Shown here: positions 3,194 through 20,332 of the stretch, piece by piece | Layout of the letters: every line of letters begins with the position of its first letter | How positions within the stretch are numbered: position 1 is the first letter of the stretch | IMG/VR virus record: IMGVR_UViG_3300028392_000347 | Span: 1-20,368 of that record | Origin: a virus | Reading direction: 5' to 3' (one strand) | Length of the DNA stretch: 20,368 nt | Program-made: the position numbers and the translations under genes | Notes under the pieces: model-generated | The model's input: the letters and a program-made list of their open reading frames with translations, nothing else | Told to the model about the DNA's origin: nothing | Databases searched by the model: none

Positions 3194-5500
3194 ATGACAA
3201 TTCGCAAGTATTCTTCTATATCCCAGGAAACCTCACTTACTGCAGCGCTTAACTCAAGTGCCACAACAATGACTGTTGGTTCAGGTTCTGCTTTGCTTGG
3301 TGGAATTACGCCAGCATCTGGTGAAACATTTACAGTAGTCCTTGACCCAGATACAGCCCTTGAAGAAATTGTAGATGTAATCTATCCTTCAACACCTGGA
3401 AGCAATACAATTACAATTTCTCGCCCTATTGATAGCACTCAGGCAATTGCTCACTCTGCTGGTGCCAAAGTGCGCCACATGGCTATTGGTCGTGACTTCC
3501 GTGAGGCTAATACTCACATCAATGGAACTCTTGCTGAACATGGTGCTACTACTTCTGCTCAACTTGCTGGTGTCATCTCTGATGAGACTGGTACTGGTTC
3601 TCTAGTATTTGCTACATCCCCTACTCTTGTAACACCAGCGCTTGGTACTCCAGCCTCTGGCGTACTTACTAACGCAACTGGACTTCCTCTAACAACTGGC
3701 GTAACTGGAACTCTTCCAGTAGCCAATGGCGGAACTGGTGTAACAACATCAACTGGTTCTGGCGCTAATGTACTTTCAACTAGCCCTACCCTAGTCACAC
3801 CAGTTCTTGGTGTAGCCACAGCAACAAGCATCAACGGTACAACTATTCCTACAAGTGCTACATTGGTCAAAACAAGTGACACTGGAACAGTTACAAGCAC
3901 AATGATTACCGATGGCACTATTGTAGATGCCGACATTAATGCATCTGCTGCAATTGCTAAGACTAAGGTTGCAGGAACTGCTATTACTGCAGCCGATACT
4001 GGCACAGTAACAAGTGCTATGATTCTTGATGGTACAATCCTTAACGCTGACATTAACGCATCGGCTGCTATTGATAAAACTAAGATTTCAGGCACAGCGG
4101 TAACAGTTGCCGATACTGGTACAGTCACATCTGCAATGATTGCTAATGGCACAATTGTAGATGCTGATGTATCTACTACAGCAGGTATTGCTTATACCAA
4201 ATTAAGCCTTGGTGGAACTATTACTTCCGCTGACTTGGTTGATGGAACTATTGTTGCCTCAGATATTGCTAATGGTACTATTACCGCAGCCAAGATGGTT
4301 ACAGACCCATATGCACGTGCTAACCACACAGGTACTCAATTAGCAGCAACCGTCTCAGACTTTGACACACAGGTACGCACATCTCGCTTAGACCAGATGG
4401 CTGCGCCTACTGGCTCTGTAGCATTAAATGCTCAGAAGATTACAGGACTTGCAACACCAACTCTTACTGGAGATGCTTCAACTAAGGGTTACGTAGATGC
4501 ACAGATTACCGCTCTTGTTGGTGGCGCTCCTGGAACACTAGATACGCTTGCTGAAATTGCTACTGCAATCTCTAGTGGAGGTTCAGTAATCAACACTTTG
4601 GTACTCAAGGCTGGCGATACTATGACTGGTCCATTGGTATTAAATGCTAATCCTTCTGCAGCCCTTGGCGCTGCTACTAAGCAGTATGTAGATGCTGTTG
4701 CTGGTTCTGCTACTGCTGCTGCAGCCAGTGCTGCTGCCGCTGAGACAACTTACGATAACTTTGATGACCGCTACCTAGGGGCTAAGTCAGCCGCTCCGTC
4801 TGTAGATAATGATGGTAACGCACTTATCACTGGTGCTCTTTACTGGAATACTCCTGCTGCAACTATGTTTGCTTGGTCAGGTTCTTCTTGGGGTTCAATT
4901 TCCTCAACTGCAGCAATCTATCGTTATCGTTATTCAGCATCAGGTGGAGAAACCACGCTTTCAGGTGCGGATGCAAATGGACTAACACTTTCTTACTTAG
5001 TTGGTAAAGAACAGGTATACCTTAATGGTGTACTTTTAGTCCGTGATTCAGACTATACAGCATCTAATGGAACATCACTTACTTCTCTTTCTGCATTAAC
5101 TGCTGGAGATGTTGTAGAGATTATTACATTCACGGCATTTGACCTAGCCTCAGCAGTACAGACATCTACTTTCACCGCTAAGGGTGACTTATTTGTTGCT
5201 ACTGGAGCAGGCACATCTGGCAAGATTGCAGTCGGAGCAAACACATATCTTTTAACTGCTGACTCAACAACAGCAACTGGAGTTAAATGGGCAGCACCTG
5301 CTCCTGGATACTCAGCACCAACTCTTGGTTCTACATCTATTGCATCAGGAGCAACAGTAACAACAATTGCTGGTCTAACTCTAACAGCACCAACATTAAC
5401 TGGAACAGTAACAGCATCAGGAGATATTACATTATCTGCTGCTGGAGCATTTGGCAGTATTATAGATTATCAAACACTCAATCTTATGGGTGCCCTCTAA
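3194..5500 (+). CDS. Tail fibre protein with repeat modules
   Basis: This 768-residue tail fibre starts 3 nt after the previous stop, behind GAGG. Residues 14-97 form a beta domain ending in IAHSAGAKV, like the one in the upstream adaptor, probably the virion-attachment part. Residues 140-185 carry a widespread fibre motif ([20 protein letters not shown]), and 229-345 hold three 39-residue repeats. Residues 405-502 carry phage tail repeat modules ([48 protein letters not shown]). Residues 530-565 match a common fibre segment ([14 protein letters not shown]). The last 170 residues contain [20 protein letters not shown] and [12 protein letters not shown], typical of distal shafts. There is no signal peptide and no chaperone or peptidase motif at the C-terminus. 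The product should form a trimeric, beta-rich fibre used in host recognition, with the final receptor tip perhaps supplied by the genes downstream. Confidence 0.9.
3878..4228 (+). repeat. Three tandem 117-bp units encoding 39-aa fibre repeats
   Basis: Three units cover fibre residues 229-267, 268-306 and 307-345. Each begins DTGTVTS.MI.DGTI..ADI, and the first two continue INASAAI.KTK. The third has diverged ([13 protein letters not shown]), and two partial DGTI/NGTI modules follow up to about residue 368. The DNA copies differ mainly at third positions, so the duplication is not very recent. Such arrays set fibre length and can expand or contract by recombination. Confidence 0.85.
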
Positions 5501-5517: not shown

Positions 5518-5820
5518 ATGGCTACAACAACTAAGGCTCTTTATCGAGGAGCCGCTGCAACATCCTCAACAACACTTTATACAGTTCCAGCATCTACTAC
5601 TACAGTAGTAACTAATATTGTGGTGGCTAATACTACATCTACTGCTGGAACATTTACGCTTACTCTTGATGGAGTATCTATGGCATCAGCAACAACTATC
5701 GCAGCCAATGACACGGTAGTAATTGACCTTAAACAAGTTCTTGCTACTACAAAAATTATTGCAGGACTTGCTTCTGCTATAACAATTAACTTTCATATTT
5801 CAGGTGTGGAGATTTCCTAA
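5518..5820 (+). CDS. Small beta-sandwich-like tail protein, copy A (TLYTVPAS type)
   Basis: This 100-residue protein is rich in Thr, Ala and Val. Key blocks are TLYTVPASTTTVVTNIVVAN (residues 19-38), TIAANDTVVIDL and a C-terminus ending GVEIS. The pattern is that of a small all-beta protein widespread next to phage tail fibres, function not established. It is a clear paralogue of the 109-residue product at 7487-7816: both have TLYTVP, a VV..I...N strand, AANDT and LATT.II, and both end in EIS. Like that copy it ends in a TAATGG junction with a larger gene starting MAI. The pair probably forms a module mounted on the tail tip. Spacing to the fibre stop (17 nt) with GAAAGG suggests its own initiation. 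Confidence 0.8.
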   Translation: MATTTKALYRGAAATSSTTLYTVPASTTTVVTNIVVANTTSTAGTFTLTLDGVSMASATTIAANDTVVIDLKQVLATTKIIAGLASAITINFHISGVEIS

Positions 5821-7109
5821 TGGCTATTAATAGATTAACACCAGCAAGTACTTCTACTGAAGGTATAGTTACAATTAAAATTGCGCAAGAAGTTTCAGAA
5901 AAAACAGTTCCCACTTCATTTCCTGCTGGAAACTACAGAATTGATACAGGAGCATCTGGTTTAATTAAAGTTGCTCTTTTAAAATCCGATGGCAGTCTTG
6001 AGTTAGAATTTTCATTTACAACCTCATCATTTTTTACAATTGCAAATACAGTTACAAAAGTTCAAATTGTTGCAACAACTGCATCTGTAAACGGAATTGT
6101 TACATTTCAACAATTATCACGTGGTGTTGTTTCAACAAACATATGGAGTTATTCAACACCAGGTGGAGATTTACAACGTGGTTGCAAAGCCGTAAACAAT
6201 GCTGCCAATACTGCAATTTATTTTGTTGGTGGAACAAATGATACTGATTGGTCTGTTCAGTCTGGTGCTGGTATTGTTCGTAAATGGGTTAAATCAACTA
6301 ATACTTGGTCTACTGTAGTAACTGGAAATACAAATATTAATTATCAGGTTCATGGAGTTGCAGTTAATAATGTGATGTATTTTTGTAATACTACTAATAC
6401 TTCAAATTGGTATAAATTTGATACTGCAACAGAAACAGTAACAACCCTTTCTGCTCCTAGTTATCCAATTCGTATTGGTACAGCAGTAAAAAATAATCAA
6501 AATACAAAAATTTATGCTTTGGGTTCTTACCAAAATGCTACTCCAATGTCATTTCGCGTTTACACTATTGCCACAAATACTTGGGCAAACTTAACAACTG
6601 CGCCTTTTGGTAGTGGCGGTTACGGCGGCGCTAATTCTTGGGCTCATCCTAGTGATAACGATAAACTTTATTGGTCTGATACGCAGGCGCAAACTACTAT
6701 TTATCGTTATAATATAACTGCAGATACTTGGACTGATACTGGAATTTCTGTAATAAATGTTGACTATACTTCTGGTACAGAAAGAACAAACTATAATGGT
6801 TTGGGCAGTTTAACTCCTTCTGGAAATTATTTTATTTATTCATATGATAGTAACAGAAGTGCTTCTGCTACAACAATTCCTTCTGCTACGGATTGGTGTT
6901 ATAACAATTCAATTCCTACAGTACGACCTGTTGCATTGACTGGAATTTATTCTCAACCCGCTACTGGAAGTCGTGATTCTTGGCATCAATCTATGGTACA
7001 TTTTGATGATACAAACATATATGTTTTTGGCGGTATGAGTACATTAAATCCTGGTGGCATTTGGTACGTTCCATATGCTACTTTCTTATCTAGAGTGGGG
7101 CTATCATAA
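5820..7109 (+). CDS. Receptor-binding protein candidate with Kelch-like propeller
   Basis: This 429-residue protein has an N-terminal domain of about 100 residues shared with the product at 7816-8727, and then a Kelch-like beta-propeller. Propeller cues are IYFVGG (133-138), STNTW (159-163), DTATETV (201-207), IYALGS (231-236), ATNTW (251-255), ITADTW (299-304) and a late IYVFGG (400-405). I estimate about six blades, with the last strand closing against the first. Kelch propellers bind proteins or sugars, and the family is known from many phage tail tips and host surface proteins. There is no signal peptide. The start overlaps the stop of the small beta protein upstream (TAATGG), so the two are probably made together. 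I infer a distal adsorption protein, but the receptor is unknown. Its mRNA is AT-rich with many Asn/Thr codons compared with the fibre gene. Confidence 0.75.
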   Translation: MAINRLTPASTSTEGIVTIKIAQEVSEKTVPTSFPAGNYRIDTGASGLIKVALLKSDGSLELEFSFTTSSFFTIANTVTKVQIVATTASVNGIVTFQQLSRGVVSTNIWSYSTPGGDLQRGCKAVNNAANTAIYFVGGTNDTDWSVQSGAGIVRKWVKSTNTWSTVVTGNTNINYQVHGVAVNNVMYFCNTTNTSNWYKFDTATETVTTLSAPSYPIRIGTAVKNNQNTKIYALGSYQNATPMSFRVYTIATNTWANLTTAPFGSGGYGGANSWAHPSDNDKLYWSDTQAQTTIYRYNITADTWTDTGISVINVDYTSGTERTNYNGLGSLTPSGNYFIYSYDSNRSASATTIPSATDWCYNNSIPTVRPVALTGIYSQPATGSRDSWHQSMVHFDDTNIYVFGGMSTLNPGGIWYVPYATFLSRVGLS

Positions 7110-7110
7110 A

Positions 7111-7296
7111 ATGAATCTAACATCACGTACTACAACATCTAACGGAGAAATTATTGCCTGGGTAGATAATGATGGTAAATCTTGGATAGAACAAGATTTT
7201 AATCCTAAAAATCAATCTGCTTGGTCATCAGAAACAGATGCTCTTGCTTGGGCTGATGCGTGGATTTCTCAACACCAGGAGGAATTTAATGACTAA
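7111..7296 (+). CDS. 61-aa Trp-rich acidic protein
   Basis: ATG at 7111 lies 1 nt after the stop of the Kelch gene. A longer in-frame start exists upstream inside that gene but has no ribosome site, so I prefer 7111. The product (61 residues) has WVDNDGKSWIEQDFNP and AWSSETDALAWADAWISQHQ, a beta hairpin followed by an acidic, Trp-containing helix. I recall short phage proteins of the form '.G..IAWVD..GK..I.Q.FNP....W....EA..WA' near fibre genes. An assembly chaperone for the Kelch protein would fit its place, in the way small chaperones accompany receptor-binding proteins, but no motif proves it. It overlaps the next gene by 8 nt. Confidence 0.75.
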   Translation: MNLTSRTTTSNGEIIAWVDNDGKSWIEQDFNPKNQSAWSSETDALAWADAWISQHQEEFND

Positions 7297-7483
7297 AGCA
7301 CGTGACCTAGCAAACGCAGCAACTGCGCTTAACGCAGTAACTGCCACAGAAATTGGATATGTAGACAACGTAACATCCCCAATTCAAACACAATTAAACA
7401 CTAAGGCAACAACTACATATGTAGATACAGCGGTGGATGGAGCAGACCCAACACCTACAGCACTAATGACAATGGGAGCATAA
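7289..7483 (+). CDS. 64-aa free-standing tail-fibre-motif peptide
   Basis: A perfect AGGAGG (7277-7282) six bases ahead fixes the start at 7289. An in-frame upstream start at 7238 would lie inside the previous gene and lacks such a site. The product opens MTKARDLANAATALNAV and contains TATEIGYVDNVTSPIQTQLN, a motif normally repeated within long tail fibres ('TE.GYVDGVTS.IQTQLN.K'). Here it occurs once, followed by KATTTYVDTAVDGADPTPTA and a stop. It is therefore either a reduced fibre gene or a small adaptor that trimerises with a fibre. Its N-terminus also looks like fibre N-termini, so I favour a shortened paralogue that is still translated. Confidence 0.75.
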   Translation: MTKARDLANAATALNAVTATEIGYVDNVTSPIQTQLNTKATTTYVDTAVDGADPTPTALMTMGA

Positions 7484-7486
7484 CAA

Positions 7487-7816
7487 ATGGCAGCAACATA
7501 CAAGGTACTCGGACAGGTAAACCCTTCCGCTACCACAGCAACAACTCTATATACCGTTCCCTCAGCAAAGAGTGCGGTTGTATCTACTATCACAATCTGT
7601 AATCAGGCTGCAACAGCAGCGACATTCCGTGTGGCTATCCGCCCTGCGGGTGCAACACTGGCTGCAATCCACTACATTTCATATGACTCAACAGTGGCTG
7701 CCAATGATACGACTGCTTTGACTATTGGTGTGACACTTGCTACTACAGATATTATCACTGTGTATGCATCAACCGCAACAGTGTCATTCAATGCATTTGG
7801 AAGCGAGATTTCATAA
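7487..7816 (+). CDS. Small beta-sandwich-like tail protein, copy B (TLYTVPSA type)
   Basis: This 109-residue protein lies 3 nt after the preceding stop. It shares with the product of 5518-5820 the blocks TLYTVPSA, the VVSTITICNQ strand, AANDTTALTIG, LATTDIITVYAS and an end of FNAFGSEIS. The core pattern matches many small phage tail-region proteins that I recall having a similar TLYTVP...NDT...FGSEI outline. It is 9 residues longer than copy A because of an insert around ATLAAIHYISYDST. It ends in the same kind of TAATGG junction with a larger gene beginning MAIS. Each copy seems to be the first gene of a two-gene receptor-binding cassette. Confidence 0.82.
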   Translation: MAATYKVLGQVNPSATTATTLYTVPSAKSAVVSTITICNQAATAATFRVAIRPAGATLAAIHYISYDSTVAANDTTALTIGVTLATTDIITVYASTATVSFNAFGSEIS

Positions 7817-8727
7817 TGGCAATTAGCAAAGTAAACCCAGTTGTAACTTCTACAATTAACGCAAGTTCTATTACTTGTATATCTGCAAATATTTTATACG
7901 CTGGGTCAGTTTCTTTAGACCCCGCAATTTATACAATAACTTGTGCTTCATCAACTATTGCAAATGTTGAATTTTTTTCAGGAATATCAACCTTAATAAC
8001 AACTGCAACAACATCATCTGGAACTGTGTCTATCAACCTTGCTTCTGCTGCAGATAGAGTTCGCATTTGGACAAATACTGGAAGCAATATTGTAGTTACA
8101 ATTACTAAAACTGCTGGTGCTTTGACAAACAATTTTAGTGGAACTCTTGACACAATTACAACTATTGGTTCTTCAACTTATACAGGCACATCTACCTCTG
8201 GCTATGGGTACGTTTTACTTAGCGGTGGTGGTGGTGGTGGCTGCGGTAGAGATAGTGGCATTAATGAAGGTGTTGGCGGTGGAGGAAGCAGCGGTTGTTA
8301 TACTGGTGTTGTTGCACTGACAGGTTCAATGGCAGTTGTAATTGGTGCCGCTGGCGTAGGGGGTAGTTCTTCTGGTACAAGCGGAACTGCAGGTGGTTCA
8401 TCTACATTTGCTGGTGTTACAGTAACTGGTGGTGGCGGTGGTGGACCTGGACGCGCTGGTGGCACGGCTGGAAACGGAACAAATGCAGAAGCAGGAACAA
8501 CAGTAAGTTCAGGTTCTTATCCAGGAGGAAATGGGGGCTCAATTATTTCTCCTCGTTCTTTTATAAATGGCGGAGGGTATGTAGGAACTGGCGGCGCAGG
8601 TGGTTTTGGTGCTGGTGGTGATGGTACGGGATATGGTTCTGGCGGTGCAGGTGGTTCCAAAAATAACGGTCCCGCAACTGCTGGTGGTAATGGCAGACCT
8701 GGCGTTCTTTACGTACTTCGCTTCTAA
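7816..8727 (+). CDS. Receptor-binding protein candidate, glycine-rich tip
   Basis: The product has 303 residues. Residues 1 to about 100 (MAISKVNPVVTSTINASS, AIYTITCAS, VRIWTNTGSNIVVTITK) align in pattern with the first 100 residues of the Kelch protein at 5820, indicating a shared mounting domain. Residues 115-135 lead into a Gly-rich region (136 to about 296) with runs of six glycines and GG.G motifs, ending GVLYVLRF. This matches the Gly-rich distal domain of some phage adhesins, where polyglycine II helices pack into a compact tip and exposed loops contact the receptor. Three cysteines lie near the tip region. There is no chaperone gene directly downstream. The start overlaps the upstream stop, so it should be co-translated with the copy-B beta protein. 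Confidence 0.75.
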   Translation: MAISKVNPVVTSTINASSITCISANILYAGSVSLDPAIYTITCASSTIANVEFFSGISTLITTATTSSGTVSINLASAADRVRIWTNTGSNIVVTITKTAGALTNNFSGTLDTITTIGSSTYTGTSTSGYGYVLLSGGGGGGCGRDSGINEGVGGGGSSGCYTGVVALTGSMAVVIGAAGVGGSSSGTSGTAGGSSTFAGVTVTGGGGGGPGRAGGTAGNGTNAEAGTTVSSGSYPGGNGGSIISPRSFINGGGYVGTGGAGGFGAGGDGTGYGSGGAGGSKNNGPATAGGNGRPGVLYVLRF

Positions 8728-8788: not shown

Positions 8789-10759
8789 GTGGCATCGCCA
8801 GACATTACGCAAGATTTACCCTTAAACGTAGGTAATCCTGGAACTTCTGGGTTTTGGACAAACAACGCAGAAGACTATGACATTGCTATTGGTGGTGAGC
8901 CATACATGCTTGCTCCTACAGACCAGACTCCATATCAGCGTGAGACTGCACCGTACCGCAAAGACCAGTTTGATGCTGCTGCTGAGCCTGGAGAACAATC
9001 ACTTACAGGTTGGTGGATTCGTTCACAGTCATCTTTCCATATTGGGCAGGGCATTAAGTTCTACGACCCATCTGCAGGTGAATCAACCAAGTATCGTTTT
9101 ACAGACTCACAAGGCGTTGATGTATGGACTAAGGGTCAGGCAACACTTCTTAAGAATGTAACTGAAGGACAAGTTACATATGCTGGGCTTGCTACAAACA
9201 AGAAACCACAACAGCATATCCGCTCTATTCAATACAGTGGAACTGATGCGGTATTGCTTCATGATGGCTACATCATAGACCGTGTTGATTCTGATGGAAC
9301 TATTGTACATTGGGTAAATTACAACTCAGCAACTCGTGACCCTATATTTTCTATCTGTGATGATGGCAAGTATGGCTATTGGGTAACTAATGATGCAATA
9401 TCTGGCAAATTAGAGTTTAACAGAAAATTGCTATCTGACGGTGCTTCTGTCAATCCTACTGTTATGTTTACAAAAGTAGGACTTACAGTTACAAGTGCTG
9501 TAATAGAGTTTGTCAAAGACCGCATCATTGCGTGTATAAATAATGAAGTCTATGAAATTTCCCCTACTGCTACAGCGTTGCCTTCTACAGCATCGTATAC
9601 TAACCCCAACACAAACTATGTTTATACAAGCATTACTGCTTCTGGTCCAGCAATTTATACATCTGGCAATTCAGGGTTATACTCAAGCATACAAAAGTAT
9701 ACATTGACAACTGGTGGCGCTATGCCAGTTATGACTCAGGCTTCTGTGGCTGCAGAACTTCCTATTGGCGAAACTATATTTAAAATCTTTTATTACCTTG
9801 GATTCATGTTAATTGGAACAAGCAGAGGTGTGCGTGCAGCCTTTGTCCAAGCAACAGATGGCTCACTTGCTTACGGTCCACTTATTGTAACAACTACGCA
9901 ACCAGTTTATGACCTTGCTGCTCGTGACCGTTTTGTTTGGGCAACTGCTACTATTGGAACATACGATGCTGGACTTATTCGCATTGACCTAAGTCAGACA
10001 ATTGAGGGTGAAGCCTTGCGTTATGCTTATGCAAATGATTTGCAATATGCTCAAACTGCCCAGCATCAAACAACAGCAGTTGCCTTTATTGGTTCTACAA
10101 ATCGTCTTGCTTTTTCTACAGAATATCGTACAACTAGCGGACATCTTTACTTTGAAGATAGTACAAACCTTGTTCCTACAGGCTATATAACTACTGGTGC
10201 TATTCGCTATGGAACTCTTGAGCCTAAGAACTTTAAGTTAATTCGTGGTCGTGGTGACTTTACCTATGGTGCTATGGATTTACGCTCTATTGATTCTGCT
10301 GGAAACCTTTATACAATCATTACTTACAATTCTGCTGTAGGAACCCCAGAGGCTGCTACAACTAACCCAGAAGGTCCACAAGAGTACCTGTCATACAAGT
10401 TTACGCTCTCACGTAGCGCAAGCGATACCAGTCGCGGTCCCGTATTTAAGGGCTATCAAACAAAGGCTCTACCTGCCACTGCACGCCAGAGACTGATTCA
10501 ATTTCCAGTTTGGTGCTTTGACGTAGAAACCGACAGATACAATGTAAAGACTGGGTATGAAGGCCGTGCGTGGGAGCGTATTCAAACACTTGAAAACGTT
10601 GAAAAACTAGGTGACATCATTAACGTACAGGACTTCACTACTGGTGAGCGTGTACAGGCTGTCATTGAGAAAATCAACTTCTTAAGAAAGACTCCACCAT
10701 CTGGTAACTTCTCAGGATTTGGCGGTCTGCTTTCTATCACAGTTAGGACTGTCTTATAG
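8789..10759 (+). CDS. Large tail structural protein (beta-rich, nozzle/tube-like)
   Basis: GTG start at 8789, with AAGGAG at 8779-8784. The 656-residue protein begins with an acidic, Pro/Thr-rich part (LPLNVGNPGTSGFWTNNAED). A long central region follows, made of repeated strand-turn units with IRSIQYSG, AVLLHDG, GYWVTND, VYEISP and WATATIG, which look like blades of a propeller or beta-barrel repeats. The last hundred residues or so are a separate beta domain (RQRLIQFPVWCFDVETDRYN, then NVQDFTTGERVQAVIEKINF). The size and tail location resemble the large tail tubular B/nozzle proteins of podoviruses, but some distal tail proteins of other phages also have this C-terminal style, and I cannot separate the two. 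No membrane segment or enzyme motif is visible. It overlaps the next gene by one base (TAGTG). Confidence 0.65.
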   Translation: MASPDITQDLPLNVGNPGTSGFWTNNAEDYDIAIGGEPYMLAPTDQTPYQRETAPYRKDQFDAAAEPGEQSLTGWWIRSQSSFHIGQGIKFYDPSAGESTKYRFTDSQGVDVWTKGQATLLKNVTEGQVTYAGLATNKKPQQHIRSIQYSGTDAVLLHDGYIIDRVDSDGTIVHWVNYNSATRDPIFSICDDGKYGYWVTNDAISGKLEFNRKLLSDGASVNPTVMFTKVGLTVTSAVIEFVKDRIIACINNEVYEISPTATALPSTASYTNPNTNYVYTSITASGPAIYTSGNSGLYSSIQKYTLTTGGAMPVMTQASVAAELPIGETIFKIFYYLGFMLIGTSRGVRAAFVQATDGSLAYGPLIVTTTQPVYDLAARDRFVWATATIGTYDAGLIRIDLSQTIEGEALRYAYANDLQYAQTAQHQTTAVAFIGSTNRLAFSTEYRTTSGHLYFEDSTNLVPTGYITTGAIRYGTLEPKNFKLIRGRGDFTYGAMDLRSIDSAGNLYTIITYNSAVGTPEAATTNPEGPQEYLSYKFTLSRSASDTSRGPVFKGYQTKALPATARQRLIQFPVWCFDVETDRYNVKTGYEGRAWERIQTLENVEKLGDIINVQDFTTGERVQAVIEKINFLRKTPPSGNFSGFGGLLSITVRTVL

Positions 10760-10959
10760 TGAGTGCTACAGATTGGGCTGCTCTTGTTGTAGCCGTTATG
10801 ACAATACTAGGTGGCTTTGCTACCTCAGTACGTTGGTTAGTTAAACATTACTTAAGTGAATTAAGACCAAACGGGGGCGGTTCCGTGAAAGACCAAGTAA
10901 ACCGATTGGAATCCCGAGTTGACCAAATCTATCTCCTTCTTTGCGAGAAAGACAAGTAG
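10759..10959 (+). CDS. Small membrane/coiled-coil protein, lysis region
   Basis: GTG start at 10759 overlaps the upstream TAG. The 66-residue product has one predicted membrane segment (WAALVVAVMTILGGFATSVRW, about residues 6-26), a short basic linker (KHYLSELRPNGGG) and a C-terminal amphipathic helix (VKDQVNRLESRVDQIYLLL). This 'membrane anchor, NGGGS, coiled coil' plan is common in actinophage gene clusters near lysins and is often listed as holin-like or minor tail-associated. It may act as a holin accessory or spanin-like part, but no function is proven. Its last 41 bases are also used by the next gene in another frame. Confidence 0.75.
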   Translation: MSATDWAALVVAVMTILGGFATSVRWLVKHYLSELRPNGGGSVKDQVNRLESRVDQIYLLLCEKDK

Positions 10960-12349
10960 CAAACTAGCAGTACTCTTTATCCTTTTTGGTACTTCTTTTT
11001 TTTGGAGTCCAAGTGCGCAAGCAACCGCTCCAGAGTTAATGGTTAGAAATGTAACAATCCTCTGTTCAAATCCTGCAGGAGAAACACACACTGCAATGAC
11101 AGGCTGGGATGCAGATAACTCTTACTTTAATGGCAAGGGTGATATTGCAAGATTATTCTGTGAAGGTGGATTTGGTGGTCAATGGACTACCTATTTAAGC
11201 GATAACTATACAGGCGTAGGAAGATTCTATAATGGAATCAATCCCACTCCCGTCGTGACTCAAAGTCCAACGCCTTCCAGTTCAAATCCCACTCCCTCAG
11301 CGTCTCCTTCTGAGACTGCAACCGCTTCTCCTTCTGAGTCATCCACCACCATTGTGTCTCCGAGTCCTTCAGTAGAAACAGCGACGCAACCAAGCCCGTC
11401 ACCATCCCCAGTATTAAGCCAATCACCCAGCCCGAGCCCAACTCCATCATTAAGTCCATCTGAGACCTCCACGGTAGTAGTGACACCAAGTATACCACAG
11501 GAGCCTGTAAACGTCCCTGTGACCCCTCCAGCGCCTCCTGCGGTAGAACCTACACCTGTTCCTGCTCCAGTATCTGTGCCAGTATTGCAACCCGAGCCAA
11601 CACCAGCCCCAGCGCCTGTGAGTCAGCCTGAACCAGTTTCAAGTCCTGCACCAGAACCTGTGGCAATTGCAGACCCTGCTCCAACCCTTGAGCCAATTCC
11701 TCTTCCAATTCCAGAACCAGTCGCTGAGCCAGACCCAATTGTTGAGCCAACGCCCGTACCCGTACAGGAACCAGTGATTGAACCACCCGTTCCTGTTGAG
11801 GAGCCTCCTGCTGTAGTGGAGGAACCAGTGTCAGATGACGCTTCATTACCGCCACTTCCTGAAGAAAAACCACCAGCGGAACCGCCAGTAGAGCCTATGC
11901 CACCTGTGCCTCATGATGAACCTCCTGTTGCTGATAAGAATGCGACGGATGAAGAAAAAGCCATTGTAGCACAAGCAATCATTGAACAAGCACATGGCGA
12001 GCCAGTAACAGCGCAAGCAATTGCGGATGCTGGTTTGACCTATGCAGATTTACCACCTGAAACACCAGTTGAAGTTCGTCAAGATGAGAATGGAAACGAA
12101 GTTGTTATCACAGCAGAGGTGGCAGCAGCGCTGGTTGTATTAGAAAACCCAGCAGCCCTTGTTGCTGCACTCTTTACTGACCCAGCACAGGCACTACTTG
12201 CTATTGCAAGCATTGGTGCTGATATGAGCCCACAAGAACGTGCACAGTCTGAAAAGACAGTAGTTGCTGCAGTTATTGTAGGACAAATCGCGGGACAAGC
12301 CGCAGTCACCGCTGCTGCAGGTGCAGCCGCATATCGGAGGAAACCATGA
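10919..12349 (+). CDS. Secreted Pro/Ser/Thr-rich protein
   Basis: TTG at 10919 is the only standard start that includes the export signal, and it lies inside the preceding gene. The 476-residue product begins with a signal peptide (KLAVLFILFGTSFF core, predicted cleavage after AQA, residue 35). A small domain with two cysteines (C49, C81) follows, able to form a disulfide outside the cell. Residues about 108-345 are a Pro-rich tract, first Ser/Thr/Pro and then PEP/PVP repeats, like cell-wall-spanning linkers, and possibly glycosylated. The final part (about 345-476) is an Ala-rich helical domain whose end (about 445-470, TVVAAVIVGQIAGQAAV) looks membrane-embedded, with the charged tail YRRKP. 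It resembles a surface-anchored host-type protein. Its place beside the lysins suggests a role at the cell envelope: wall remodelling, superinfection exclusion or a spanin-like bridge. A T8 run at 10996-11003 in the signal region is worth checking for sequencing error. Confidence 0.75.
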   Translation: MTKSISFFARKTSSKLAVLFILFGTSFFWSPSAQATAPELMVRNVTILCSNPAGETHTAMTGWDADNSYFNGKGDIARLFCEGGFGGQWTTYLSDNYTGVGRFYNGINPTPVVTQSPTPSSSNPTPSASPSETATASPSESSTTIVSPSPSVETATQPSPSPSPVLSQSPSPSPTPSLSPSETSTVVVTPSIPQEPVNVPVTPPAPPAVEPTPVPAPVSVPVLQPEPTPAPAPVSQPEPVSSPAPEPVAIADPAPTLEPIPLPIPEPVAEPDPIVEPTPVPVQEPVIEPPVPVEEPPAVVEEPVSDDASLPPLPEEKPPAEPPVEPMPPVPHDEPPVADKNATDEEKAIVAQAIIEQAHGEPVTAQAIADAGLTYADLPPETPVEVRQDENGNEVVITAEVAAALVVLENPAALVAALFTDPAQALLAIASIGADMSPQERAQSEKTVVAAVIVGQIAGQAAVTAAAGAAAYRRKP

Positions 12350-16265: not shown

Positions 16266-16700
16266 ATGAAACTGACAACATACACTTGGATAATGGCTGC
16301 TGTAGTCTTTGCGGGAACTTTACCCCACGCTGTGGGTGCGATGTTCCTACAAGGACAAATGCGGGCAATCGACGCAACAGCATCATGCAAAAATCTAAGT
16401 TACGTACCAATATCGGAGATGAAACGACTAGCAAAGCGAATCGCTAAGAACCGAGTAATGACAACGTACAACAGTAAATACGAGTGGAAAGCACTCTTTA
16501 CTTTGTGGGACAAGGAATCTCGCTGGGATTATACAGCGAAGAACCCCCACTCAACCGCCTATGGAATCCCTCAGATATTAAATATGGATGAGAAGACTCC
16601 TATGGCACGTCAGATTGATTTAGGATTAAAATATATACAGGCTCGTTACGATACCCCTTCAAAGGCATTAGCCTTTCATAATCGTTACGGCTGGTATTAA
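16266..16700 (+). CDS. Secreted/membrane-anchored lytic transglycosylase-like protein
   Basis: GAGGAG precedes ATG 16266. The 144-residue product begins with a hydrophobic stretch (WIMAAVVFAGTLPHAVG) that acts as signal peptide or anchor. It continues with a basic helical linker and ends in a transglycosylase-like (SLT) domain: LWDKESRWDYTAKNP (E84 as catalytic acid), TAYGIPQ (98-103), QIDLGLKYIQARY and a C-terminal AFHNRYGWY. This matches the domain of actinobacterial aggregation-promoting/resuscitation-type lysins, which cut glycan strands. It is separate from the main lysis region and lies among replication genes, so early or mid-infection expression is likely. Roles could be local wall opening, entry-related digestion or helping the CHAP lysin from outside. 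Confidence 0.8.
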   Translation: MKLTTYTWIMAAVVFAGTLPHAVGAMFLQGQMRAIDATASCKNLSYVPISEMKRLAKRIAKNRVMTTYNSKYEWKALFTLWDKESRWDYTAKNPHSTAYGIPQILNMDEKTPMARQIDLGLKYIQARYDTPSKALAFHNRYGWY

Positions 16701-18897: not shown

Positions 18898-19634
18898 AAA
18901 ATATAGTTTGTATATCCGACTTGCAGGTTCCATATCATGATGTAGAAGCCACGAAGGCTGTGGCTAAGTTTATCCAATGGTATCAACCTGAGACAGTCGT
19001 CTCTTGTGGAGACGAGATGGATATGCAGACGATTAGTAAGTGGAGCAAGGGTACTGAACTAGAGTATGAACGCTCTATTGGTCGTGACCGTGACCTTACA
19101 CGCAGTGTGCTGTATGACTTAACAATTGAGCACATGGTGCGCAGTAACCATACTGACCGCTTGTTTAATACTGTGGCTATGAGAGTGCCAGGACTTCTTG
19201 GTTTGCCTGAGTTACAGTTAGAAAACTTTCTTGGTCTTGATGAACTTGAGATTAAATATCATACTGACCCATACGAACTAGCCCCTGGCTGGTTGCTTAT
19301 GCATGGTGATGAAGGAAACGTACAGCCTAGTGCTGGCGCTACTGCATTGGGCTTAGCAAAGCGTTCAGGTATGTCTGTGGTGTGTGGTCACACGCATCGC
19401 ATGGGCTTAACACATCAGACTCAAACATATCGTGGTGGTAAGCCACGTACCATTTGGGGCATGGAACTTGGTAATCTTATGGATTACCGTAACGCAAAGT
19501 ATATCAAGGCTGGGCTATTCACATGGCAACAAGGCTTTGGCATCTTGCATGTAGATGGTAAGAATGTAACCCCACAGATAGTACCTATCATCAATCAGTC
19601 ATTCACTGTTGATGGGAAAACTTTTAAGTGGTAG
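18894..19634 (+). CDS. Calcineurin-like metallophosphoesterase
   Basis: This 246-residue protein has the metal site of the family: D9 and H15 (ISDLQVPYHD), D40 (VSCGDEMD), N85-H86 (SNHTDR, replacing the usual GNHE), H137 (LLMHGDEG) and G165-H166-T167-H168. It hydrolyses phosphoester bonds, and in phages proteins of this class act on DNA ends, RNA or nucleotides. Length and motif order are normal. The coding start overlaps the HNH stop by 4 nt. Context among replication genes favours a nucleic-acid or nucleotide substrate. The substitution in the third motif keeps Asn and His, so activity is likely retained. Confidence 0.9.
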   Translation: MKNIVCISDLQVPYHDVEATKAVAKFIQWYQPETVVSCGDEMDMQTISKWSKGTELEYERSIGRDRDLTRSVLYDLTIEHMVRSNHTDRLFNTVAMRVPGLLGLPELQLENFLGLDELEIKYHTDPYELAPGWLLMHGDEGNVQPSAGATALGLAKRSGMSVVCGHTHRMGLTHQTQTYRGGKPRTIWGMELGNLMDYRNAKYIKAGLFTWQQGFGILHVDGKNVTPQIVPIINQSFTVDGKTFKW

Positions 19635-20332
19635 TTACTGAAACATATGCTGGCGTTGTTGGTGCTATAGCCTACGAGTATTCTCGCAAGTACCACATGT
19701 GTGATGCTGATGATATTCGTCAGGAACTATGGGTATGGTTTCTTGAGCATCCAAATAAAGTTAAGACATGGGAAGAGTTAGAGGGCAAGCAGTCTATTAA
19801 ACTGATTGCTAGGTCTCTTCGTAATGCTGCTAAAGATTATTGCCAAAGGGAAAAGGCGCGTGTTGTAGGCTACAAGGTAGAAGACAACTACTATTATGAC
19901 CGTGAGGTTGTAGAGGTATTGCTACCAGCAGTACTACGCAAGGACAAGACAGCACCAGCCATGACAGATTTAGGATTTACCAATAGCAAGAAGGTTGCTT
20001 CCGAAGGTGGTAATTGGTTTGCCATGATGGCTGACATTGAGAGGGCATTGGCTCGTTTGACTCATGAACAGTTAACTATCATTTACCTGCGTTTTGGCGA
20101 CGGATGTGATAATGTTACCTTGGCTAAGGAATTGTCAGTGACTGAAGATGCTGCGCGTATGCGCGTCAATCGTGCAGTCAACAACTTACTTAACTTTCTT
20201 GGTGGGCAACGCCCACGCAAGGAACGAGACTATACAGAGGAGCGGGTCAATGAGCAGAATAATGAAGATAGACGAAGTGATTCTGACACACCAGAAGTTA
20301 GAGACACTGATGAAGGACAAGACTTGGACTGA
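19628..20332 (+). CDS. Sigma-70-like factor (phage sigma/ECF-like)
   Basis: GTG start at 19628 overlaps the end of the metallophosphoesterase gene. The 234-residue protein has a region 2-like N-terminal half (SRKYHMCDADDIRQELWVWF, then KLIARSLRNAAKDYCQREKA). A poorly conserved linker follows, and then a C-terminal helix-turn-helix of region 4 type (ARLTHEQLTIIYLRFGDGCD, VTLAKELSVTEDAARMRVNR, about residues 143-182). An Arg/Asp/Glu-rich tail ends the frame. Such proteins direct host RNA polymerase to phage promoters. Whether it reads the TGN-TANNNT early boxes or separate late promoters is unknown. The last 83 nt overlap the next gene in another frame, so the acidic tail may be less constrained. 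Confidence 0.78.
   Translation: MVVTETYAGVVGAIAYEYSRKYHMCDADDIRQELWVWFLEHPNKVKTWEELEGKQSIKLIARSLRNAAKDYCQREKARVVGYKVEDNYYYDREVVEVLLPAVLRKDKTAPAMTDLGFTNSKKVASEGGNWFAMMADIERALARLTHEQLTIIYLRFGDGCDNVTLAKELSVTEDAARMRVNRAVNNLLNFLGGQRPRKERDYTEERVNEQNNEDRRSDSDTPEVRDTDEGQDLD

Follow-up and report, generated by a model that had tools for sequence, protein, structure and literature searches.

A proposed peptide-coded connector for receptor-binding tips in a two-cassette phage locus

Introduction

In Klebsiella phage KP32, the second tip attaches to a virion-bound protein through a short conserved peptide at its N terminus (PMC13082707), and in Salmonella phage SP6 a separate intermediate adaptor joins two different tailspikes to the virion (PMC13082707). 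Here we analyse a 20,368-nucleotide (nt) stretch of viral DNA (IMG/VR record IMGVR_UViG_3300028392_000347, positions 1 to 20,368; hereafter the window) that holds two tandem cassettes, A and B, each pairing a gene for a small protein with a gene for a large protein carrying a putative receptor-binding tip. The likeness to the branched systems of KP32 (gp37/gp38) and phage G7C (gp66/gp63.1) lies in a conserved docking peptide; in those systems the peptide docks on a T4 gp10-like branching domain inside the first receptor-binding protein, whereas the window is proposed to use a stem's C-terminal tail and a jelly-roll protein distinct from stem and tip, in at least two non-interchangeable types. 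A Pfam scan of the 768-amino-acid (aa) fibre of the window gave no match, so no T4 gp10-like branching domain was seen by Pfam. Compared by description, SP6 holds both tips on one adaptor, whereas each tip of the window would sit on a separate stem by way of a separate small connector. The proposed connector would resemble the KP32 docking peptides and the SP6 adaptor in its working and would differ from them in being a separate connector addressed by two peptide signals. No literature on such a connector was found by the connector terms tried, and no paper was found mentioning the TLYTVP motif of the small proteins.

The cassette is probably a plug-and-socket mount for receptor-binding tips, built on a jelly-roll connector with two docking sites, a proposal carried by gene linkage, homology and a statistical match of tail, small protein and plug. 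At one site, the small protein would bind the short C-terminal tail of a virion-anchored stem (a fibre, a stub or a baseplate hub), and at the other the first ~8 residues, or plug, of the large tip protein. Connectors would fall into types that do not cross, A and B and probably others, each recognising a tail and a plug peptide of its own, and a phage could therefore carry two tips side by side. In the window phage, fibre, small A and Kelch-tip protein would assemble beside stub, small B and glycine-rich-tip protein without mis-assembly, and tip bodies would exchange freely provided that plug and socket match.

Results

Two tandem cassettes with paralogous small proteins

Both cassettes sit between the 768-aa main tail fibre (3194..5500; PHROG 38058 tail fibre, E 8e-88) and a conserved 656-aa tail protein (8789..10759; phrog_11667, E 7e-152) that closes the variable region and serves as a lineage marker; all features given in this form are on the plus strand. 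Cassette A consists of small protein A (100 aa, 5518..5820; phrog_1276) and large protein A (429 aa, 5820..7109), and cassette B of small protein B (109 aa, 7487..7816) and large protein B (303 aa, 7816..8727). The stop codon of the small gene and the start codon of the large gene share one base (TAATG) in both. The original prediction, made from the letters of the window, thus had the two cassettes right in coordinates and lengths, but omitted two genes between them: a 61-aa open reading frame (ORF; 7111..7296) without a family match, with other small ORFs at similar places in relatives, and a 64-aa, fibre-like stub gene (7289..7483; MTKARDLAN...TPTALMTMGA) with a weak PHROG match to a virion structural protein. 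Its claim that the small proteins are paralogues is beyond doubt (Smith-Waterman score 176, against 52 +/- 8 for shuffled sequences, with 0/2000 as high).

The AlphaFold model of small B (predicted local distance difference test (pLDDT) score 93) has eight strands. Its top structural matches are nucleoplasmin-like domains (Z 10.2, root-mean-square deviation (rmsd) 2.4 over 93 residues), and viral jelly rolls also match, among them the trimeric cement protein of Helicobacter phage KHP40 (Z 9.3, rmsd 2.8 over 102) and the HFTV1 turret (Z 8.9, rmsd 2.8 over 95); Bacillus Ena appendage subunits match similarly (Z 8.9, rmsd 2.9 over 96). These last three differ from the small protein in their place in the particle and share 9-14% sequence identity with it. 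The jelly-roll matches are mostly oligomeric and many are virion proteins; Foldseek gave 0.004 as its best E value, with a mixed set of leading matches. The predicted fold is a jelly roll, of an often oligomeric type, and names no family; it is generic because nucleoplasmins match equally well or better than virion jelly rolls. A reading in which the small protein is a duplicated copy of the large proteins' N-terminal domain was rejected, since hhalign related the two with a probability of 0.2%.

The comparison covered some 250 phage loci, in which a small protein was typed A or B by whichever window small protein scored higher, a typing supported by the small-protein tree, where A and B separate at one branch with support 100. 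Unlinked genes in relatives would have spoken against the original prediction, but small and large genes are tightly linked there: an ORF of at least 100 aa begins within 60 nt after the small gene in 174/185, and 128 of 168 unique pairs have the one-base overlap. Small proteins >90% identical can precede unrelated tips. A search of bacterial genomes with small B led to one contig of a metagenome-assembled genome. Variants of the arrangement were also seen. Two tandem small A genes lie ahead of a single tip gene in three loci (L120, 5001-5657; L156, 2951-3612; L083), and B-type small proteins of 187-188 aa with an apparent ~70-residue insertion occur in two (L138, 2436-2999; L139, 2467-3033). 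The tip gene does not directly follow the small A gene in L092, L101 and L143, the first two of which have a hairpin-like sequence (CCCCAGCC...GGTTTGGGG) immediately 3' of the small A gene.

The tail of the upstream protein matches the small-protein type

Proteins upstream of small A typically end in [LI]MGA plus one bulky residue or in MDS[LK], and those upstream of small B in LMTMGA, FMMMGA, LGGM or LIGG. In the window, the fibre ends ...LNLMGAL before small A and the stub ...TALMTMGA before small B. Tails were counted in 80 main fibres with the whole interval to the 656-aa protein gene in view. The small gene ahead of that gene was type A for 43/43 fibres with an A tail and type B for 28/29 with a B tail, and fibres with neither tail had no small gene (8/8). 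Tail and small type therefore agree in 79/80 fibres as scored, and in 80/80 once the exception (L204) is read as a gene-start artefact, its small B ORF being present with an over-extended predicted start.

The same endings are found on short stubs. Where a phage has two cassettes, a stub gene of 42-81 aa often lies ahead of the second small gene, and many such relatives have a member of the window stub's family immediately before small B. A position weight matrix trained on fibre tails only classed 6/7 distinct stub tails correctly, the one miss being no short stub but a protein of 229 aa, and called all siphophage hub tails A. It places the candidate docking tail of the window fibre (TLNLMGAL, 5474..5497) in class A, although this fibre itself contributes to the matrix, and the candidate tail of the stub (TALMTMGA, 7457..7480) in class B.

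Junction DNA is alike across loci (consensus ...GGAGTGGAGATTgCaTAATGGC) and includes a Shine-Dalgarno-like GGAG, as would be expected if tail and plug were kept merely through recombination or translation signals. This explanation is highly improbable, because both peptides are type-specific, tails match small genes that are one or more genes distant, and tail codons vary synonymously as much as those of the small genes, which argues that selection acts on the peptide and not on the DNA.

Streptomyces siphophages carry the tail on a baseplate hub

The closest cultured relatives of small A are in the Streptomyces Arquatrovirinae. All 135 records matching small A are Streptomyces phages, though many of the matches are individually weak. 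Arquatrovirinae siphophages (for example, Camvirus and Likavirus) resemble the window in having a homologous small protein directly before a variable large protein, but they are long-tailed and their small gene lies behind a hub. In the 12 phages examined, all Arquatrovirinae, the gene order is hub, small protein and variable 397-737 aa protein (12/12), and the hub ends in IMGVW or IMGVY (12/12). The small proteins of Amela and Joe are 92% identical, whereas their tips are 11% identical, and 8/12 tips start with MGF[NS]V[IV]P. In the records seen, the small gene is annotated as hypothetical and the large gene as hypothetical, minor tail or tail fibre protein. The tail is thus common to unrelated carriers: fibre, 64-aa stub and siphophage hub.

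Hub homologues from phages with no detectable small gene lack the tail (9/9). Of these, three stop at roughly the same point and six continue as 563-662-aa proteins, which may be hubs covalently fused to a putative receptor-binding part.

These carriers bear on whether the small protein instead acts as a chaperone that helps the neighbouring tip assemble and is missing from the mature virion, with plug and tail as assembly signals. Dedicated tail-fibre chaperones are common in phages, and the overlap of small and tip genes, suggesting translational coupling, would suit one. A chaperone is nevertheless unlikely, since the small protein pairs with upstream proteins and not with the tip alone, hubs of the same family often extend into extra C-terminal domains where it is missing, as for a structural coupler, and its jelly-roll matches are mostly oligomeric and in many cases virion proteins.

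The first residues of the tip protein follow the small-protein type

At positions 6-7 of the large protein, [FIYV]P occurs in 70/89 A-type and 0/75 B-type proteins. To lessen the influence of shared bodies, we compared 25 disjoint cross-type pairs whose bodies are at least 45% alike; plug and small type agreed in 19, were opposite in 0 and tied in 6 (p 4e-6). Across a 41-body tree we count 12 changes of small type, against 12.5 with shuffled labels, so bodies are unlinked to type. When only well-supported branches of that tree are used, four independent pairs remain, nearly always all in agreement, too few for significance. The clearest case is large B, whose body shares 83% identity with a protein encoded behind small A in L246, where the plug reads MAISVFPA rather than MAISKVNP; the large B plug (7816..7839) fits the B pattern (KVN). 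The sequences therefore indicate a plug that follows the small type while the rest of the large protein moves between types.

Agreement of tail, small type and plug could also come from common descent of linked genes without protein contact, given that neighbouring genes could be passed on as a block and that many rows are related. We give this very little credence. The bodies are randomised with respect to type although they start about 8 codons after the start codon, and the upstream proteins with a common tail (fibre, stub and hub) are not homologous.

Large proteins share an N-terminal domain and differ in their tips

Likeness between the two large proteins had been predicted for their first ~100 residues, which were taken as the mounting domain. 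Direct alignment gave z about 2 (86/2000 shuffles as high), too weak as proof of kinship, and profiles were used instead. A profile of large B relatives (20-24 sequences, large A excluded) found large A at E 7e-6 to 1e-6, compared with a best E of 0.007 for 1000 shuffles, and hhalign aligned the two N-terminal domains with 87% probability (E 4e-6). Compared by profile, the domains are homologous (large A residues 15-105, 5862..6134). In the AlphaFold model of large A, this domain has eight strands, mostly of high pLDDT; the first ten residues are uncertain (plug pLDDT about 47) and the tip is poorly modelled.

Likeness of the domains did not make them the mount. Besides large A, about 24 of ~164 related pairs have the domain, 18 behind small A and 6 behind small B; in the other, about 140, pairs different bodies start right after the short N-terminal motif. 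Because so few pairs have it, the domain does not appear to be the obligatory mount: it travels with the body, occurs on both small-protein types and is found with bodies that shift between types with the plug replaced, and tip bodies up to 83% identical occur on differing small types. The original version, with the small protein as an accessory, would explain why the domain is common to large A and B and occurs with both Kelch and glycine-rich tips, but is very unlikely given these counts. What stays constant instead is the small protein itself, along with two peptides: the C-terminal tail of the protein encoded upstream and the first ~8 residues of the large one.

The tips differ, as had been proposed, and similarity to the named families was found, with Pfam scores below the curated cut-offs. 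For large A, three weak-to-moderate lines point to a Kelch-like tip: Kelch_6 (E 0.0013, 19.1 bits; cut-off 25.3), a sequence match to KEAP1 (E 0.001) and, for a low-confidence model, structural matches to galactose oxidase and Kelch domains (Foldseek E 3e-9) and to VIA (Z 12.8, rmsd 4.2 over 168). The tip of large B resembles Gly_rich_2 (PF21722; E 0.003, 17.9 bits; cut-off 24.3) in composition and by PHROG 863, and it also resembles a PHROG tail-fibre family (E 2e-14). No relatives of large B and no close relatives of large A were found in phage records; in IMG/VR, only one near-identical contig (L001/L166) has large A. The G+C content of cassette A (5518-7109) is 0.33-0.39 and its GC3 0.10-0.17, against 0.44 for the window. 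Low G+C and GC3, together with the lack of a close relative of large A, suggest that cassette A was perhaps acquired recently.

Possible further connector types

Cyanophage-like loci, fetched after the main counts and including many close relatives, show a third signature, with tails such as GFTFWAGAM, FTFWAGAM or relatives and the plug MGRxL[ST]. A plug of this kind, MGRYLSNP, is also seen in Acidithiobacillus phage AcaML1, whose genome includes a tail sheath gene. Tail FAIALG with plug M.GYIGKS hints at a fourth type. The tail and plug sets that go with these additional small-protein relatives (L278-L344; L355, L358, L359) are GFTFWAGAM or NYFL with MGRx, and ALAFAIALG or AVSVALS with M.YIG[KN]S. 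There is about an even chance that the connector belongs to a general peptide-coded system of several mutually exclusive types that mounts tips in short-tailed, long-tailed and contractile-tailed phages.

Lineage and neighbouring genes

Relatives of the 656-aa protein were found in Streptomyces Beephvirinae, including podophage Abafar, which has podoviral morphology (PMC11536984), and we infer on this basis that the window phage is of a short-tailed lineage. No tape-measure gene was recognisable in the window, which spans only 20 kb. The fibre (3194-5500) contains repeated segments. A 476-aa ORF with a TTG start (10919-12349) has a hydrophobic, signal-like N terminus and a long Pro-rich repeat region, gave no match in Pfam and PHROG scans, and adjoins a small ORF on one side and a CHAP-domain endolysin on the other. 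A weak lytic-transglycosylase (SLT) match at 16266-16700 lies in the replication region, apart from the lysis genes, and a sigma-70 region 4-like protein is encoded near the window end (19628-20332).

Discussion

Several observations weigh against a plug-and-socket mount. Most counts used the very loci that had supplied the motifs, and the fibres in the set are interrelated. A plugs are non-uniform: 19/89 A-type tips are without [FIYV]P, including large A itself, whose plug (MAINRLTP, 5820..5843) resembles the [KR]LxP plugs of several other A-type proteins. Among the Streptomyces phages, OzzyJ and Lika have VALNIYP and VALTVYP in place of the MGF plug, and the plugs of Salutena and Hank144 (PYD or PYD-like) are also off that motif. 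Docking itself, a place for the proteins in virions and a receptor-binding role of the tips are furthermore read from sequence, an indirectness that counts on the same side.

A switch between two specificities, which had also been suggested, found no backing: no recombinase or reverse transcriptase was seen among the scanned ORFs and no inverted repeats flank the cassettes in this 20-kb window of an incomplete genome. That both tips are carried at once is the simpler reading.

If the proposed mount is correct, phrog_1276, a family with no assigned function so far, would be a coupling for exchanging receptor-binding tips and for bearing two at once, an idea that is testable in cultured Streptomyces phages. 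Tip genes would become recognisable through tail, small protein and plug even when the tip resembles nothing known, and similar connectors in very different phages may explain how tips are freely exchanged.

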